A program made the translations under genes and the position numbers. Shown piece by piece: positions 37,102 to 42,987 of a stretch of DNA of 64,000 nt. The stretch spans positions 1 through 64,000 of the forward strand of contig DASPRM010000139.1 of NCBI GenBank assembly GCA_035624455.1, written 5' to 3'. Under the pieces are notes generated by a model, which saw only the letters and a list, made by a program, of their open reading frames with translations, did no database searches and was not told the origin of the DNA. Within the stretch, counting starts at the first letter, position 1. Each line of letters starts with the position of its first letter. The stretch is from Terriglobales bacterium (GTDB lineage Bacteria; Acidobacteriota; Terriglobia; Terriglobales; Acidobacteriaceae).

Positions 37102-37584
37102 CTATTTGGACTTTGTCAGGGCAGTACGATTCATCTCGTACGCCAAAAGGGTTGCTGGGGCCAGGGCATCGGGCACCTGGCTGTTTACGGTATGTTCCAC
37201 TTCCACAAGCAAGGCGAAATCCTGGTCCTGACTACGAATGGATTGGCTGTACGTGGGCGCCGGAACAGCTGGGGGCTTCGCGGGTTTCAGAAGAAACACC
37301 CCAAGAACAATCAAACCTACGACCATGCTCCAGGCCAGACCTGGAATGCCTTGGCTTGAGCGTGCGGCAATCTGGCTTTCAATGCGCGCGCGCTGCGCGG
37401 ACCAGAAGAACTCATCGCGGGCAGCAAGCTGCTGTGAGTCGTCGCGGAAAGCCGCGAGCGGTGCTGCGATCAGGTCGCGCTCACGGCGGCAATCGGCGCA
37501 AGATGCGAGGTGGCCGGCAACGCTGCCGGATGGCTCCTCCCACAGCGATGCGTTCAACTCAAATTCACTCAGATGGGGATTCAC
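37102..37584 (-). CDS. Zinc-finger anti-sigma factor, membrane-bound
   Basis: A protein of 160 residues with a GTG start that overlaps the sigma factor stop by 3 bases (GTGA). The N-terminal cytoplasmic domain has the zinc-binding H-x3-C-x2-C motif HLASCADC of the ZAS family, which sequesters its ECF sigma factor. One membrane helix follows at about residues 82-99 (GLAWSMVVGLIVLGVFLL), then a short periplasmic domain of about 55 residues. Release of the sigma factor would need proteolysis or a conformational signal, perhaps via the Spy-like protein encoded next. The order in the operon is sigma, anti-sigma, Spy-like. Confidence 0.88.
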   Translation of the reverse strand: MNPHLSEFELNASLWEEPSGSVAGHLASCADCRRERDLIAAPLAAFRDDSQQLAARDEFFWSAQRARIESQIAARSSQGIPGLAWSMVVGLIVLGVFLLKPAKPPAVPAPTYSQSIRSQDQDFALLVEVEHTVNSQVPDALAPATLLAYEMNRTALTKSK

Positions 37585-38171
37585 TGACCTGCTCCTTTTA
37601 GCCGGGTTCGGATGCCACTCAGGGCGCGAGAGAGATGCGCCTTAACGGTTCCAATTTCAACGTCGAGGGTGGCGGCAATTTCCTGCAGAGTCATATCTTC
37701 GGCAAAGCGCAGCAGGAAGACTTCACGTTGATTAGGAGATAAGCGGTTGGCGGCTTTCCAGATGGCCGCTACCCGCTCCCGCTCCACGAGTTGTGCTTCC
37801 GACGAAAGCTTGCCATCGGGTATTTGCTCGGCGATATCACTCAACTCTTGCCGGTCTGGCGCGTGAAACAGTTTTTGCCAGAAGCCGCGACGCTTGCTGC
37901 GGAAGTAATCGCGAGTCAGGTTGATGGCGATTCTGGTCAGCCAGGTCTCGACCGCAGCTTCTCCGCGGAAGCTGGCACGCTTCCGGTAAGCCCGCAGGAA
38001 GCATTCCTGAGTGAGATTGTCGGCCGCGTCCGGATCCTTCAGCACGCACAGCAGAATCCGGTAGATGCGCCGCTGATGGAGGCGGACGATCTGGTTGAAG
38101 TCCTGCTCTGCGAGAGACTTAGCATCCGGTACGGCCTCGATGGGCAACATTCCGGTGACGATGTCGGCCAA
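37581..38171 (-). CDS. ECF RNA polymerase sigma factor (RpoE-like)
   Basis: A protein of 196 residues with the two-domain architecture of ECF sigma factors. Region 2 is at about residues 25-95 (DAADNLTQECFLRAYRKRASF and WLTRIAINLTRDYFRS). Region 4 is at about 135-190 (LSPNQREVFLLRFAEDMTLQEIA, then DVEIGTVKAHLSRALSGIR). It recruits RNA polymerase to stress promoters and is presumably held by the anti-sigma factor encoded next. The 5' end faces the leader of the sulfite reductase operon, so the intergenic region (38172-38341) contains two divergent promoters. Confidence 0.92.
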   Translation of the reverse strand: MADIVTGMLPIEAVPDAKSLAEQDFNQIVRLHQRRIYRILLCVLKDPDAADNLTQECFLRAYRKRASFRGEAAVETWLTRIAINLTRDYFRSKRRGFWQKLFHAPDRQELSDIAEQIPDGKLSSEAQLVERERVAAIWKAANRLSPNQREVFLLRFAEDMTLQEIAATLDVEIGTVKAHLSRALSGIRTRLKGAGQ

Positions 38172-38299: not shown

Positions 38300-38329
38300 T
38301 TGACGGACGTGAATAATCCGGGCTAGGCT
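38300..38329 (+). promoter_or_regulatory. Candidate promoter of the sulfite reductase operon
   Basis: TTGACG (38300-38305) and TAGGCT (38324-38329) are separated by 18 bases. The -35 matches consensus at five of six positions, the -10 at three. The predicted start, near 38336, would place the leader ATG at 38342 only a few bases into the transcript, so the leader peptide would be nearly leaderless. Confidence 0.5.
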
Positions 38330-38341
38330 CTAGATCACTTT

Positions 38342-38437
38342 ATGATTTCCTCGTGCCAGATTGTGGGTTCTGGAGTCGCGTGCAATACGTGTTGTTGTAC
38401 GACCCCATCTTCTGGCGCTGGGAGGAGACTCGAGTAG
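38342..38437 (+). CDS. Cysteine-rich leader peptide (attenuator uORF)
   Basis: An open frame of 31 codons starting at ATG 38342 and ending in TAG at 38435. Five codons are Cys: number 5, number 14 and the consecutive run 17-19 (TGT TGT TGT, 38390-38398), within VACNTCCCTTPSSG. Five Cys in 31 codons, three of them adjacent, in a leader directly before a sulfite/nitrite reductase gene is the arrangement expected of an amino-acid attenuator. Poly-cysteine leader peptides that attenuate cysteine operons are known from mycobacteria. No strong ribosome site precedes it; the likely promoter lies so close that translation may be nearly leaderless. Function is inferred from position, codons and RNA structure. 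Confidence 0.72.
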   Translation: MISSCQIVGSGVACNTCCCTTPSSGAGRRLE

Positions 38438-38477
38438 TCATTCCTTAGACTAAAAAGTTGCAAAGAGGCCCACGCGC
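38415..38477 (+). promoter_or_regulatory. Candidate antiterminator pairing
   Basis: GCGCTGGG (38415-38422, inside the leader frame, just after the Cys codons) can pair with CCCACGCGC (38469-38477) with one bulged C. This uses the left arm of the terminator and excludes it. A ribosome stalled on codons 17-19 would leave 38415-38422 free; one that reaches the TAG at 38435 would cover it. Confidence 0.55.
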
Positions 38478-38509
38478 TAGAAGTAAAGCACGTGGGCCTT
38501 TTTGTTTTT
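38466..38509 (+). terminator. Intrinsic terminator (attenuator) before the reductase gene
   Basis: A 9-bp perfect stem, AGGCCCACG (38466-38474) and CGTGGGCCT (38491-38499), is extended by GCT/AGC inside the loop and followed by TTTTTGTTTTT. It lies between the leader frame and the reductase start codon (38522) with no gene before it to terminate other than the leader, so it is best read as an attenuator. Confidence 0.8.
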
Positions 38510-38521
38510 GGGACTGAACTT

Positions 38522-40225
38522 ATGCCGGAAGCTACCAAAGAGACAAAAGCCGCGAGGATCGAGCGGCTCAAACGCGCCAAAAATGCGTGGGAGAGCCTGC
38601 ACGAAATCCGGGAATTCGCCCGCCAGGGATGGCAGTCAATCCCTCCGGAGTGGCTGGGGACCTATTTCCGATTCTGGGGTGTGTACACTCAGGGCGACGG
38701 TGTTGGAGCGGTAGGCGGAACAGGCGGGGAAGGCAAAGCGCTTCCCTATTTCATGGTGCGGATTCGGATTCCCAATGGCTTGCTCCGGAGCCATCAATTG
38801 CGCACCATCGCCGATCTGGCAGCGAAATATGCAAGGGGAGTCGCCGACATCACCGTTCGACAGAATATTCAGCTGCACTGGGTTCGAATTGAGGATCTCC
38901 CCGATCTGCTGGAGCAACTATGGCGGGCCGGACTGACCACGATGGGCTCCTGTGGCGATGACACGCGCAACATTACTGGCTGCCCCCTGGCTGGAATTGA
39001 TGCTGATGAAATCTGCGATGCGTCGCCACTGGCGTTGGACGTGAATCGCTTTTTCGTTGGCAACTCGGAATTCTACAACCTCCCACGGAAATTCAAGATC
39101 AGCATCACCGGCTGCCGGGTATGGTGCTCCTATCCAGAGATTAATGACATTGGATTGACCGCAATCTCTCGCACACGAAACGGCAGCGAGGAGGTCGGTT
39201 TTTCGCTGCGGGTGGGAGGCGGGCTCTCAACAGATCCGTACTTTGCCCAGCGCTTGAATGCTTTTGTTGCCTGGAATCAGGTCCAGGCGGTGGTGAAGGG
39301 GATTGCGGAGATTTTTCGTGACAGCTCGATGTTGCGCACCAGCCGAGAGCAGGCTCGTCTGAAGTTCCTTTTCCTGAAGCACGGTTGGACAGCGCAGAGC
39401 TTCCTGCAAGAGTTGCACAGCCGAATCGGATTCAAGCTGGATCCCGCGGAACTGGAAGAGCCTCCGTTGGACGTCTATCGGGACCACGTGGGAATTCATC
39501 CGCAAAAGCAGCATGGGTATTCCTACATAGGGGCTGCGGTGCTGCGCGGGAGAATTTCAGCCGAGCAGTTGTTGGCTGCCGCAGAGTTGGCCGAAGGCTT
39601 TGCGGCAGGTGAGCTGCGAACCACCAACATGCAAAACCTGGTGATCGTGAATGTGCGCAAGGAACGGGCGGAGGCGCTGGCGCGGGAGTTGGAAGCAATT
39701 GGGCTGCGAACGAGCGCGTCGCCGTTCTGGCGGGGCGCGATTGCCTGCACGGGGTCGGAGTTCTGCAAATTGGCGATCACCGAGACCAAGAGTTTTACGC
39801 GGTGGTTGGTAGAAGAACTGGAAGAACGACTACCTGGCTTCGATCAGCAGTTAAAGCTGAACGTCACGGGCTGCCCGAACAGTTGCGGACAGCACTGGAT
39901 CGCGGACATCGGTCTGGAGGGAAAGAAGATCAAGGTGAATGGTCAGCTGGTGGATGCCTATTACTTCTGTGTCGGCGGGGCAGTGGGTAAGCAGCAGTCG
40001 ATAGCGCGTGCGGTTGGATATCGCTGCCTCGCTTCAGAGGTTCCGGACGCAATGGAACGCCTGCTGAGTAGCTATCAGGCGCTGCGGCACGAGGGCGAGA
40101 ATCTGCGGCAGTTTTTTGCCAGGCACACCAATGACGAACTGCGAACTTTCCTGGCAGGAGGTCTGATTGCTGCGGTCGCACGGGATATGGCAATGGGCAC
40201 AGTCCCGCCCGGAATCGAGGGATAA
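38522..40225 (+). CDS. Siroheme [4Fe-4S] sulfite/nitrite reductase (ferredoxin type)
   Basis: A hemoprotein reductase of 567 residues from the ATG at 38522, with the two-fold repeated ferredoxin-like and siroheme domains of the NirA/SirA family. The cluster and siroheme ligands are Cys-409 and Cys-415 (ACTGSEFC) and Cys-451 and Cys-455 (GCPNSCGQH). Six-electron reduction of sulfite to sulfide or of nitrite to ammonia cannot be told apart by these motifs. The Cys-rich attenuator before it, the tRNA-Cys and YeiH genes after it, and the absence of nitrate or nitrite transport genes favour sulfite for cysteine synthesis. The two siroheme genes follow 7 bases later. Confidence 0.92.
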   Translation: MPEATKETKAARIERLKRAKNAWESLHEIREFARQGWQSIPPEWLGTYFRFWGVYTQGDGVGAVGGTGGEGKALPYFMVRIRIPNGLLRSHQLRTIADLAAKYARGVADITVRQNIQLHWVRIEDLPDLLEQLWRAGLTTMGSCGDDTRNITGCPLAGIDADEICDASPLALDVNRFFVGNSEFYNLPRKFKISITGCRVWCSYPEINDIGLTAISRTRNGSEEVGFSLRVGGGLSTDPYFAQRLNAFVAWNQVQAVVKGIAEIFRDSSMLRTSREQARLKFLFLKHGWTAQSFLQELHSRIGFKLDPAELEEPPLDVYRDHVGIHPQKQHGYSYIGAAVLRGRISAEQLLAAAELAEGFAAGELRTTNMQNLVIVNVRKERAEALARELEAIGLRTSASPFWRGAIACTGSEFCKLAITETKSFTRWLVEELEERLPGFDQQLKLNVTGCPNSCGQHWIADIGLEGKKIKVNGQLVDAYYFCVGGAVGKQQSIARAVGYRCLASEVPDAMERLLSSYQALRHEGENLRQFFARHTNDELRTFLAGGLIAAVARDMAMGTVPPGIEG

Positions 40226-40232
40226 CTCGAAT

Positions 40233-40856
40233 ATGAGCATGAACCTGTTTCCGATTTTTCTGAAGCTTGAGGGTCGCGAGGTCGTGGTGATCGGCGGCGG
40301 CGCGATCGCCGAATCCAAGCTGGAGGGATTGCTGTCGGCTGGAGCTCGCCTGCGGCTAGTCGCGCCTGAATTGACACCGGGGATCGCGAAGATCATCGCT
40401 CGGGGCCGGATCGGCTGGCGTCAGGGGACATTTGAGCCTGCTGATTTAAACGGGGCGTTCATGGTGATCGCCGCTACCGACGAGCGATCAGTAAACGAGG
40501 CTGTATTCCAGGTTGCGCAAGAGAAAGGCGTGCTCTGCAATGCCGTAGATGATCCCGATCATTGCCACTTCTACTATCCGGCAGTGGTGAGGCGGGGCAA
40601 GCTGCAGATCGCAATTTCCACTGCAGGCCTGAGTCCAGCCCTGGCGCAGCGGCTCCGAAAGCAGTTAGAAGCGCAATTTGGCGAGGAATATGGTGCATGG
40701 CTGGATTGGCTCGGCGCGGTCAGGCACAACCTGTTTGCCAGCCAGATGAATTCTGAGGAACGAAAGAAAATTCTGCATCGTGTTGCCAGCCACACGAGCT
40801 TCGAGACCTTTGCCAGCTGCAAATCTCATCATCAAGTGCAGGAAGGGACGCAATGA
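40233..40856 (+). CDS. Precorrin-2 dehydrogenase / sirohydrochlorin ferrochelatase
   Basis: A Met8/CysG-N-like enzyme of 207 residues (ATG 40233; a second in-frame ATG lies 6 bases on). It oxidises precorrin-2 with NAD+ to sirohydrochlorin and inserts iron, giving siroheme for the reductase encoded before it. The Rossmann motif is VVVIGGGAIAESKLEGLL. The catalytic-domain stretch NAVDDPDHCHFYYPAVVRRG is typical; the conserved Asp in CNAVDD aligns with the residue thought to serve both reactions. It starts 7 bases after the reductase stop, and its stop overlaps the next start by 4 bases (ATGA). Confidence 0.9.
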   Translation: MSMNLFPIFLKLEGREVVVIGGGAIAESKLEGLLSAGARLRLVAPELTPGIAKIIARGRIGWRQGTFEPADLNGAFMVIAATDERSVNEAVFQVAQEKGVLCNAVDDPDHCHFYYPAVVRRGKLQIAISTAGLSPALAQRLRKQLEAQFGEEYGAWLDWLGAVRHNLFASQMNSEERKKILHRVASHTSFETFASCKSHHQVQEGTQ

Positions 40857-41629
40857 GAGGAACTGTGTATCTGGTGGGCGCCGGGCCGGGCAATGTGGAG
40901 CTGCTTACAGTGAAAGCTACGCGGGTGCTGCAGCAGGCGAACGTCGTGCTGCACGATTCCTTGGTCAGCAGTGAAGTGTTGGAGCTTATCTCGCCTGTCG
41001 CAAGGGTGATCGATGTCGGCAAGCGCTGCGGGCTCAAACTGCTGACTCAGGACGAAATCAACGGACTGCTGATTTCGTTTGCAGAGACGGATCGAACCGT
41101 AGTGAGGTTGAAGGGCGGAGATCCACTGGTCTTCGGCCGTGCGGGCGAGGAGATCGAAGCGCTTCGCGAAGCGGGAGTGAAATACGAAGTCGTTCCTGGG
41201 GTCACGGCTGCAAGTGGGGCAGCAGCCGCAGCGGGAATTTCACTCACCGATCGGCGTTGCGCTTCGAGTCTCCTCATTACTACGGGCCATCGGGGAGTGG
41301 AGAACCTGGGAGGTGACTGGCTAAGGCTGGCGCGCGGCGACACGACGCTCGTCGTCTACATGCCGGGTAAGGACTACCTGAAAATTGCAGAATTGCTAAT
41401 GGAGGCTGGGCTTGAGACGCAGACCCCGTGCGTGGTGGTGTCATCGGCCAGCCGTAGCAATGAGCAGGTCCGTTTTACGAATCTGGGGGATTTGTTGAGG
41501 ATTGCCACGCCCCCCGCTCCTGCGGTGTTGATCGTGGGCTGGGTGGCGGGGTCGGTGGAAGAGTTCCGTTCGATGATGACGCGGCCAGAGTTGCAGCGAG
41601 AACTGTCTCTCCCGCGATTTGAAGTTTGA
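40853..41629 (+). CDS. cobA: Uroporphyrinogen-III C-methyltransferase (SUMT)
   Basis: A SAM-dependent methyltransferase of 258 residues. It methylates uroporphyrinogen III at C2 and C7 to precorrin-2, the branch point to siroheme. Motifs: VYLVGAGPGNVELLTVKA (SAM-binding GAGPGD-like loop), VVRLKGGDPLVFGRAGEE and VVPGVTAASGAAAAAGISLT, all diagnostic for SUMT. It lacks the CysG N-terminal part, which is here the separate gene before it. The start overlaps the previous stop (ATGA). The stop at 41627-41629 is 2 bases from the first base of the tRNA-Cys gene. Confidence 0.94.
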   Translation: MRGTVYLVGAGPGNVELLTVKATRVLQQANVVLHDSLVSSEVLELISPVARVIDVGKRCGLKLLTQDEINGLLISFAETDRTVVRLKGGDPLVFGRAGEEIEALREAGVKYEVVPGVTAASGAAAAAGISLTDRRCASSLLITTGHRGVENLGGDWLRLARGDTTLVVYMPGKDYLKIAELLMEAGLETQTPCVVVSSASRSNEQVRFTNLGDLLRIATPPAPAVLIVGWVAGSVEEFRSMMTRPELQRELSLPRFEV

Positions 41630-41631
41630 GG

Positions 41632-41707
41632 GCACCGGTGGTGAAGAGGCAAACACGGTGGTCTGCAAAACCGCTATTCGCGGGTTCGAATCCCGCCCGG
41701 TGCTCCA
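41632..41707 (+). tRNA. tRNA-Cys (anticodon GCA)
   Basis: A complete cloverleaf. The acceptor stem GCACCGG (41632-41638) pairs with CCGGTGC (41697-41703). The D stem is GTG/CAC. The anticodon stem GTGGT/ACCGC has loop CTGCAAA with anticodon GCA at 41665-41667. The variable loop is TATTC and the T arm is GCGGG-TTCGAAT-CCCGC. The discriminator is U73, an identity element of tRNA-Cys, and CCA is encoded (41705-41707). It starts two bases after the SUMT stop codon, so it can only be transcribed as part of the reductase operon unless a promoter lies within cobA. This anticodon reads both Cys codons used in the leader peptide. Confidence 0.97.
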
Positions 41708-41901: not shown

Positions 41902-42987
41902 ATGGCCGGGTCCATTGCTTTACCGCGAGTAGAACCACTCAGTTCCACTTGGAAGGTGCTGCGCCTGTTGCCGGGGGTGCTGCTGCTGGGCGCAATCGGC
42001 TATGCCGGAAAAGTGCTGGAGCAGACGATCAATACCTATTCCAAAGCCCATCACCTGACCGTGCCCAACATCGAGTACGTGCTCTGGGCGATCGCGATCG
42101 GGTTAGTGATTTCGAACACCCTGACCATTCCGGAATTTTTTCGGCCTGGGATCGCAACTTACGAATTCTGGCTGAAGGCGGGCATCGTGCTGCTGGGATC
42201 CAGGTTCCTGCTGGGAGATGTCGCGAGGCTGGGTGGTATCAGTCTGGCGTTGGTGGGGATCGAGCTGGTGGTTGCGATCACGCTCATGACCCTTTTGGGG
42301 AAGGCATTTAAGCTTCGTCCTAAGCTGACTTCGCTATTGGCGGTGGGCTCGGCGGTGTGCGGAGTATCAGCAATCATCGCGACCAGAGGCGCGATCGATG
42401 CAGACGACGAGGATTCCTCGTTGGCGATTGCCGCCATCCTGGCATTAGGAGCGCTAGCGCTATTCACGTTTCCGCTGATCGGGCACAGCTTGCACATGAG
42501 CGATCACGCATATGGCATGTGGGCCGGGTTAGCAGTCGACAATACTGCCGAAGCCACCGCCGCCGGTGCGCTTTATTCGGATACTGCCAGCAAGATCGCG
42601 GTCCTGGCAAAAACCACACGCAATGCCATGATCGGATTTGTGGTGCTGGCCTACGCTATCTACTGGGCAGGACTTGGGCAGGCCAGGCAAGTGCGAAACA
42701 AGGGCTGGTTCCTATGGCAGAAGTTTCCCAAGTTTGTTCTGGGCTTTCTTCTGATTTCGGTTCTCGCTACGTATCACGCGTTTAATAAGGCACAGCTCGG
42801 TAATTTGGCGAACCTATCACGATGGGCATTTCTGCTGACCTTCGCCGGCGTGGGCTTGCGGACCAACTTTCGGGAGATGCGCAAGCAGGGGCTACGGCCG
42901 TTTGTGGTGGGCGCTCTGGGAGAGATCGCAATCGCGGTTGTAACCCTGGGCCTGGTAGTTGGAGCCAATGCCTTGTTCCATTTGTAG
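41902..42987 (+). CDS. YeiH-family putative sulfate exporter
   Basis: A polytopic membrane protein of 361 residues with about ten hydrophobic helices, matching the conserved hypothetical protein 698 / YeiH (UPF0324) family. Signature stretches are AGIVLLGSRFLLGDVARLG, LLAVGSAVCGVSAIIATRGA and MWAGLAVDNTAEATAAGALY. The family is annotated as putative sulfate exporter; in enterobacteria yeiH is next to the sulfite-responsive regulator gene yeiE. Here its place in a sulfite reductase/siroheme/tRNA-Cys operon independently supports a role in sulfur oxyanion handling. GGGGGAG precedes the ATG. A terminator follows the gene. Confidence 0.88.
   Translation: MAGSIALPRVEPLSSTWKVLRLLPGVLLLGAIGYAGKVLEQTINTYSKAHHLTVPNIEYVLWAIAIGLVISNTLTIPEFFRPGIATYEFWLKAGIVLLGSRFLLGDVARLGGISLALVGIELVVAITLMTLLGKAFKLRPKLTSLLAVGSAVCGVSAIIATRGAIDADDEDSSLAIAAILALGALALFTFPLIGHSLHMSDHAYGMWAGLAVDNTAEATAAGALYSDTASKIAVLAKTTRNAMIGFVVLAYAIYWAGLGQARQVRNKGWFLWQKFPKFVLGFLLISVLATYHAFNKAQLGNLANLSRWAFLLTFAGVGLRTNFREMRKQGLRPFVVGALGEIAIAVVTLGLVVGANALFHL

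Follow-up and report, generated by a model that had tools for sequence, protein, structure and literature searches.

A candidate cysteine-codon attenuator with an intrinsic terminator in front of a sulfite reductase-siroheme-tRNA-Cys operon of Acidobacteriota

The window analysed here is a stretch of 64,000 nucleotides from a Terriglobales bacterium (assembly GCA_035624455.1, contig DASPRM010000139.1). On its plus strand, a short leader peptide frame precedes a siroheme reductase gene of the nirA/sir type, which is followed by genes of the cysG and cobA type, a tRNA-Cys gene, a small open reading frame and a gene for a putative sulfate exporter family protein (Table 1). The best NCBIfam models for the reductase were NF007125 and NF007126, both with scores under the curated cut-offs. 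A simple scan of the plus strand between the leader and the tRNA gene detected nothing that resembled a promoter, and the only call resembling a terminator was a weak one inside the leader. The tRNA was the only match in the window that reached the gathering score in Rfam, and a riboswitch or T-box was rejected for lack of an Rfam match. The next gene upstream encodes an ECF sigma factor on the minus strand and is divergent from the operon; the small gene 3' of it possibly encodes its anti-sigma factor. Since the upstream neighbour is divergent, the terminator in front of nirA belongs to the leader of this operon and serves no upstream gene on the same strand.

Table 1. Features of the leader and the downstream genes in the window, with one related element elsewhere in the same genome.
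Feature	Position	Strand	Remarks
Small gene 3' of the ECF sigma factor gene	37102-37584	-	possibly anti-sigma factor
ECF sigma factor gene	37581-38171	-	divergent
Probable promoter	38300-38329	+	TTGACG 38300-38305, 18 nt spacer, TAGGCT 38324-38329; by sequence
Leader peptide ORF	38342-38437	+	31 codons, Cys at 5, 14 and 17-19; MISSCQIVGSGVACNTCCCTTPSSGAGRRLE
Region 1	38353-38360	+	GTGCCAGA; contains the fifth codon (Cys); potential anti-antiterminator by pairing with region 2
Region 2 (antiterminator 5' strand)	38409-38422	+	CTTCTGGCGCTGGG; folding, alignment
Small hairpin over leader stop codon	38435-38452	+	TAGTC/GACTA; within antiterminator loop
Intrinsic terminator hairpin	38460-38505	+	G+C-rich stem about 38466-38499; fold extends the pairs to 38460-38505
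Region 3	38469-38483	+	CCCACGCGCTAGAAG; pairs with 38409-38422 (antiterminator) or 38488-38498 (terminator)
Region 4	38488-38498	+	terminator partner of region 3
U tract of terminator	38499-38509	+	TTTTTGTTTTT after the stem; its end is about 13 nt 5' of the nirA start codon (38522)
nirA/sir-type siroheme reductase (sulfite or nitrite)	38522-40225	+	Pfam NIR_SIR 6e-44
CysG N-terminal domain (precorrin-2 dehydrogenase, siroheme synthesis)	40233-40856	+	family searches
Uroporphyrinogen-III C-methyltransferase (CobA/CysG C-terminal)	40853-41629	+	family searches
Second tRNA-Cys (GCA)	41632-41707	+	ARAGORN, Rfam; 2 nt after the cobA stop
Small ORF, 42 aa	41742-41870	+	one probable membrane helix; by sequence; 3' of the tRNA
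YeiH/PF03601-type putative sulfate exporter family protein	41902-42987	+	family searches
Attenuator L141, own genome	G000 contig 4, 35008-35114		Thr/Met/Ile leader MSSACQNRVTRTGRITMAMRMRFWRGELMS, before homoserine dehydrogenase

The leader frame with its five Cys codons and the intrinsic terminator ending 13 bases 5' of the reductase ATG had both been claimed in a preliminary description of this DNA, and both were found as described, the terminator with stem and U tract. A profile of the leader peptide run against the own genome returned the window leader with an E-value of 5e-10, while the next match had 3.5. The leader ATG lies 12 nt 3' of the -10 element; the promoter copy of the window is a weak one with 8/12 matches and was missed by the stricter promoter scan. 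Compared to shuffled sequence, folding of the leader (174 nt) gave z = -6.7, and three competing pairings are predicted within it, namely, 1:2, 2:3 and 3:4. Predicted energies were -29.1 kcal/mol for the antiterminator (2:3) versus -26.9 kcal/mol for the terminator (3:4), and the pairing of region 1 with region 2 forms part of a long hairpin (38344-38431) of about -39 kcal/mol. An alternative pairing of 38415-38422 with 38469-38477 had been proposed previously; it is present, but it constitutes only part of the full antiterminator formed by regions 2 and 3. The 9-bp hairpin described over the Cys codons exists in the window as well, but it is not general among the homologous leaders. With a median local pairing probability of 0.33 for the bases of the Cys run in 82 homologous leaders, and values above 0.6 in only 9 of them, it was rejected as a functional element.

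Relatives were drawn from whole genomes and a named genome collection, resulting in 104 usable non-identical nirA/sir loci. A short ATG-started frame with adjacent Cys codons was counted as a leader and a hairpin at or below -13 kcal/mol as a strong terminator. Such a leader was found in 89 of the 104 loci, 83 of which also had a strong terminator. It was absent by these criteria in the other 15, including strain KBS 96 (L097), and all eight loci from MAGs labelled Rokubacteria or Methylomirabilota were without a leader. As a control, short frames with at least three adjacent Cys codons were sought on both strands and occurred in 75/104 loci on the forward strand versus 0/104 on the reverse strand. 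In the alignment upstream of nirA/sir homologues in related Acidobacteriota that had been suggested earlier, the Cys runs and the antiterminator strand proved to be conserved, the terminator showed compensatory changes and the spacing was near-constant. This was the case across some 30 genera as well as in named genomes of Terriglobia. Homologous leaders lacking the Cys codons or the two exclusive stems, named earlier as the observation that would speak against attenuation, were not the rule.

In an alignment of 44 sequences, the antiterminator strands paired in 87% of the cells, the terminator in 89% and the equivalent of the stop-codon hairpin in 74%. Compensatory changes in the terminator were counted in 14 cells, a number that none of 500 shuffles reached, while covariation in the antiterminator was modest because its strands are so conserved. 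RNAalifold recovered only five antiterminator pairs from this alignment, and the named structures were therefore counted cell by cell. The duplex of regions 2 and 3 had a mean energy of -20.4 kcal/mol within the own leader versus -15.7 kcal/mol after an exchange of strands among the leaders that had diverged most. The sequence of region 2 (CUGGCGCGGGG) is similar to that of the 3' arm of the terminator (CUGGCGGUGGG), so that either can pair with region 3. The 1:2 pairing, which is present in the window, exceeded 95% of the shuffles in 32 out of 73 leaders and is not universal. A leader as highly structured as this one might also be a metabolite-binding riboswitch for, e.g., SAM, cysteine or a siroheme precursor that controls the terminator, the open reading frame being spurious. 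The conserved bases in alignment A2, however, are those of the pairing strands and the Cys codons, with no further aptamer-like core, and we regard this explanation as very improbable.

The distances within the leaders were nearly invariable. The last Cys codon is separated from the CUGGC of region 2 by 16 nt (IQR 16-16) and the CUGGC from the stop codon by 23 nt (IQR 23-23); a median of 26 nt follows between the stop codon and the terminator stem. A ribosome covers about 12-13 nt beyond the start of its A-site codon and about 15-18 nt behind it. With this spacing, a ribosome at the last Cys codon would leave region 2 free, while one at the stop codon would cover its 3' half. Promoter-like sites with 9/12 or better matches were found for 61 of the 83 homologous leaders compared to 6% of mononucleotide shuffles, and their -10 element lies at a median distance of 9 nt from the leader start. 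A motif resembling a Shine-Dalgarno sequence was detected in only six of these 83 leaders. The proximity of the promoter to the ATG and the scarcity of such motifs point to a leader that is probably translated without Shine-Dalgarno sequence, i.e. leaderless or nearly so. Codon usage differed strongly: the leaders of the 83 loci use 361 UGU and 197 UGC (65% UGU), while nirA uses 104 UGU and 869 UGC (11% UGU, 89% UGC). The preference for the rare UGU in the leaders points to selection, either for decoding that is slow or sensitive to tRNA or for the RNA sequence itself.

The region thus contains a leader frame with codons for the amino acid of the pathway, an intrinsic terminator between this frame and the first gene and, by prediction and conservation, a mutually exclusive antiterminator placed in such a way that the position of the ribosome would decide between the two. 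Judged from its sequence and that of its homologues, the segment 38300-38522 very probably acts as a transcription attenuator of the ribosome-mediated type, with charged tRNA-Cys as its signal and the sulfite reductase-siroheme-tRNA-Cys operon under its control. Transcription would start a few nucleotides 5' of the leader AUG, and a ribosome would load on this near-leaderless AUG. With plentiful Cys-tRNA, it would reach the UAG at 38435 and cover the 3' half of region 2, region 3 would pair with region 4 and transcription would stop at the U tract. With scarce Cys-tRNA, it would wait at Cys codons 17-19, or at codon 5, which is part of region 1. Just past the leading edge of the waiting ribosome, region 2 would then be free, the 2:3 pairing could form and block the terminator, and the operon would be transcribed. 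If no ribosome is present, region 1 may pair with region 2, and termination would be the default in those leaders that have a region 1.

Equilibrium folding of the full-length leader favoured the terminator under every ribosome mask and reproduced no switching, so that a switch of the proposed type would have to be kinetic, like that of attenuators already described. Attenuation by Cys-tRNA had been proposed in the preliminary description and is supported by the comparison of homologous loci; the longer antiterminator, the 1:2 pairing, the stop-codon hairpin and the inclusion of tRNA-Cys in the regulated unit are additions to it. From the elements observed, their conservation and spacing and the exclusive pairings, we infer ribosome stalling, termination and a response to cysteine, that is, the regulation itself. 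As the same arrangement occurs in dozens of genera of soil Acidobacteriota, these bacteria probably sense their cysteine supply via the ribosome's reading of Cys codons.

A covariance model spanning region 2 to the terminator was used to find further loci. The genes behind other Cys leaders include another sulfite reductase type, cysG, cobA, cysH or cysD, cysN, an ABC transporter set with cysD, and others. Two of these leaders (L149 and L150) lie 5' of small ThiS/MoaD-like proteins, which are possible sulfur carriers similar to CysO, and a further Cys leader with terminator (L245) stands before a gene start that resembles a rhodanese domain by eye. The same element was also found with Thr/Met/Ile-rich leaders in front of aspartokinase genes in several relatives and of homoserine dehydrogenase genes, one of them in the own genome (Table 1), and, at one locus, with an Ile/Val-rich leader before ilvC/ilvB. 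That the leader codons follow the pathway while the RNA element stays constant strongly supports attenuation as the mechanism. It also bears on the possibility that the Cys-rich peptide itself is the product, such as a metal- or redox-binding micropeptide, and that the RNA structures are incidental. Small Cys-rich peptides do exist, and some of the leaders precede a peroxiredoxin gene. However, length and sequence of the peptide vary outside the Cys run, the spacing of Cys run, region 2 and stop codon is nearly constant, rare UGU codons are favoured and, before other pathways, the same element bears Thr/Met/Ile or Ile/Val codons instead. A functional peptide is hence considered most unlikely.

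The tRNA-Cys of the operon is not the only one in this genome, which also contains a canonical tRNA-Cys adjoining a tRNA-Gly. The two differ in their acceptor and D arms, while the operon copy keeps U73, the GCA anticodon and a full cloverleaf with compensatory changes. Among 299 genomes of the class, 54 had a related tRNA-Cys copy at E <= 1e-10; a few of these copies were partial matches to the 3' half. For 33 loci of this second type that were fetched, many of them from one genus (g34), a short frame with at least three adjacent Cys codons was found within 1.5 kb upstream in 30 cases, in 24 of which a strong terminator followed. The corresponding controls yielded 0/99 for segments of the same loci and 1/23 upstream of other tRNA-Cys hits, none with a terminator. 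The most common order was leader, terminator, 1-Cys peroxiredoxin and tRNA. At three loci (L212, L221 and L143, the last at 440-742), the tRNA-Cys follows leader and terminator with no protein gene in between. The best peroxiredoxin match of the own genome has neither an adjacent Cys leader nor an adjacent tRNA, and the tRNA is located in the nirA operon. The second tRNA-Cys therefore appears to be tied, in three arrangements, to Cys attenuators as such.

The pairing of regions 2 and 3 was better than shuffled sequence at the 5% level in only 3 of 28 leaders of the peroxiredoxin-tRNA type, so that the evidence for an antiterminator is weaker there than for nirA; a short GCGGGUG/CACCCGC match recurs among them. 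The second tRNA-Cys could have an internal promoter, and a simple scan of the window found none. On balance, it is likely that this sequence-distinct tRNA-Cys is under the control of a Cys-codon attenuator and that a shortage of charged tRNA-Cys would raise its production along with that of sulfite reductase or a peroxiredoxin. The tRNA loci are also informative with regard to translational attenuation as proposed in mycobacteria, where the nirA start would be sequestered by the hairpin and exposed by a stalled ribosome. Mycobacterial leaderless poly-Cys leaders are cited as cases of translation attenuation (PMC13236596), and many of the genomes have a hairpin that ends near the start of nirA. 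Overall, however, the distance between hairpin and gene start ranges from about 5 to over 200 nt, the hairpin has a U tract behind it in almost every leader, and elements of this kind are also found before tRNA genes, whose transcripts are not translated. Control at the level of translation is accordingly considered improbable compared to control of transcription by attenuation.

The classical trp, his, thr and ilv attenuators of Proteobacteria combine regulatory codons in a leader peptide with 1:2, 2:3 and 3:4 pairings and an intrinsic terminator. The present element resembles them in its regulatory codons, the predicted 2:3 and 3:4 pairings and the terminator; a 1:2 pairing is predicted in the window and supported in 32 of the 73 leaders. 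The element differs in its near-leaderless start without Shine-Dalgarno sequence, in the location of the Cys run, which lies between regions 1 and 2 and not within region 1, and in the use of nearly one region 2/terminator sequence for several amino acids. In Actinobacteria, candidate Cys leader peptides without an obvious terminator have been described, and Rho or translational control was proposed for them (PMC1262725, Seliverstov 2005). Experimental work on mycobacterial Cys leaders (Canestrari 2020) is considered here as cited in PMC9094748 and PMC13236596. The mycobacterial polycysteine leaders resemble those described here in the short leaderless frame with a Cys run (by sequence in our case), in the association with cysteine or sulfur operons and in the proposed use of ribosome stalling as sensor. 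In contrast to them, a strong intrinsic terminator (83 leaders) and an exclusive antiterminator are conserved here. uORFC-8-2 upstream of cysS in Rhodobacterales is a terminator-bearing candidate for a ribosome-mediated transcription attenuator with tandem Cys codons in an upstream frame, two stems and a U run (PMC8632094), all of which are found here as well. It precedes cysS and uses mostly UGC, whereas the acidobacterial leaders use mostly UGU and precede nirA, other sulfur operons and tRNA-Cys.

In Acidobacteriota, one large screen for attenuators predicted hardly any that had an associated function (PMC2965389). A search of the open literature, which did not extend to subscription papers such as the multi-phylum survey of Lopatovskaya 2010 (cited in PMC4833913), found no report of the element in this phylum and no published tRNA gene under a leader-peptide attenuator. 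Systems of this kind are already known; to the extent that this could be checked, the variant with an intrinsic terminator, its spread and the link to tRNA are new. Together, these findings offer a testable account of cysteine sensing in soil bacteria that form a large and abundant group. They describe an element that occurs in many genera, with nearly one antiterminator-terminator module reused for several amino acids, and that would extend attenuation to a tRNA gene. They also raise the question why a second tRNA-Cys should be induced when its charged form is scarce.

When the covariance model was searched at phylum level, the matches outside the family or class were all weak; two of them still show leader-like frames, which contain Cys or Ile/Leu codons. 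One more distantly placed member of the phylum (L247) has an Ile/Leu-rich leader with a terminator before a gene start that resembles, by eye, 2-isopropylmalate synthase.
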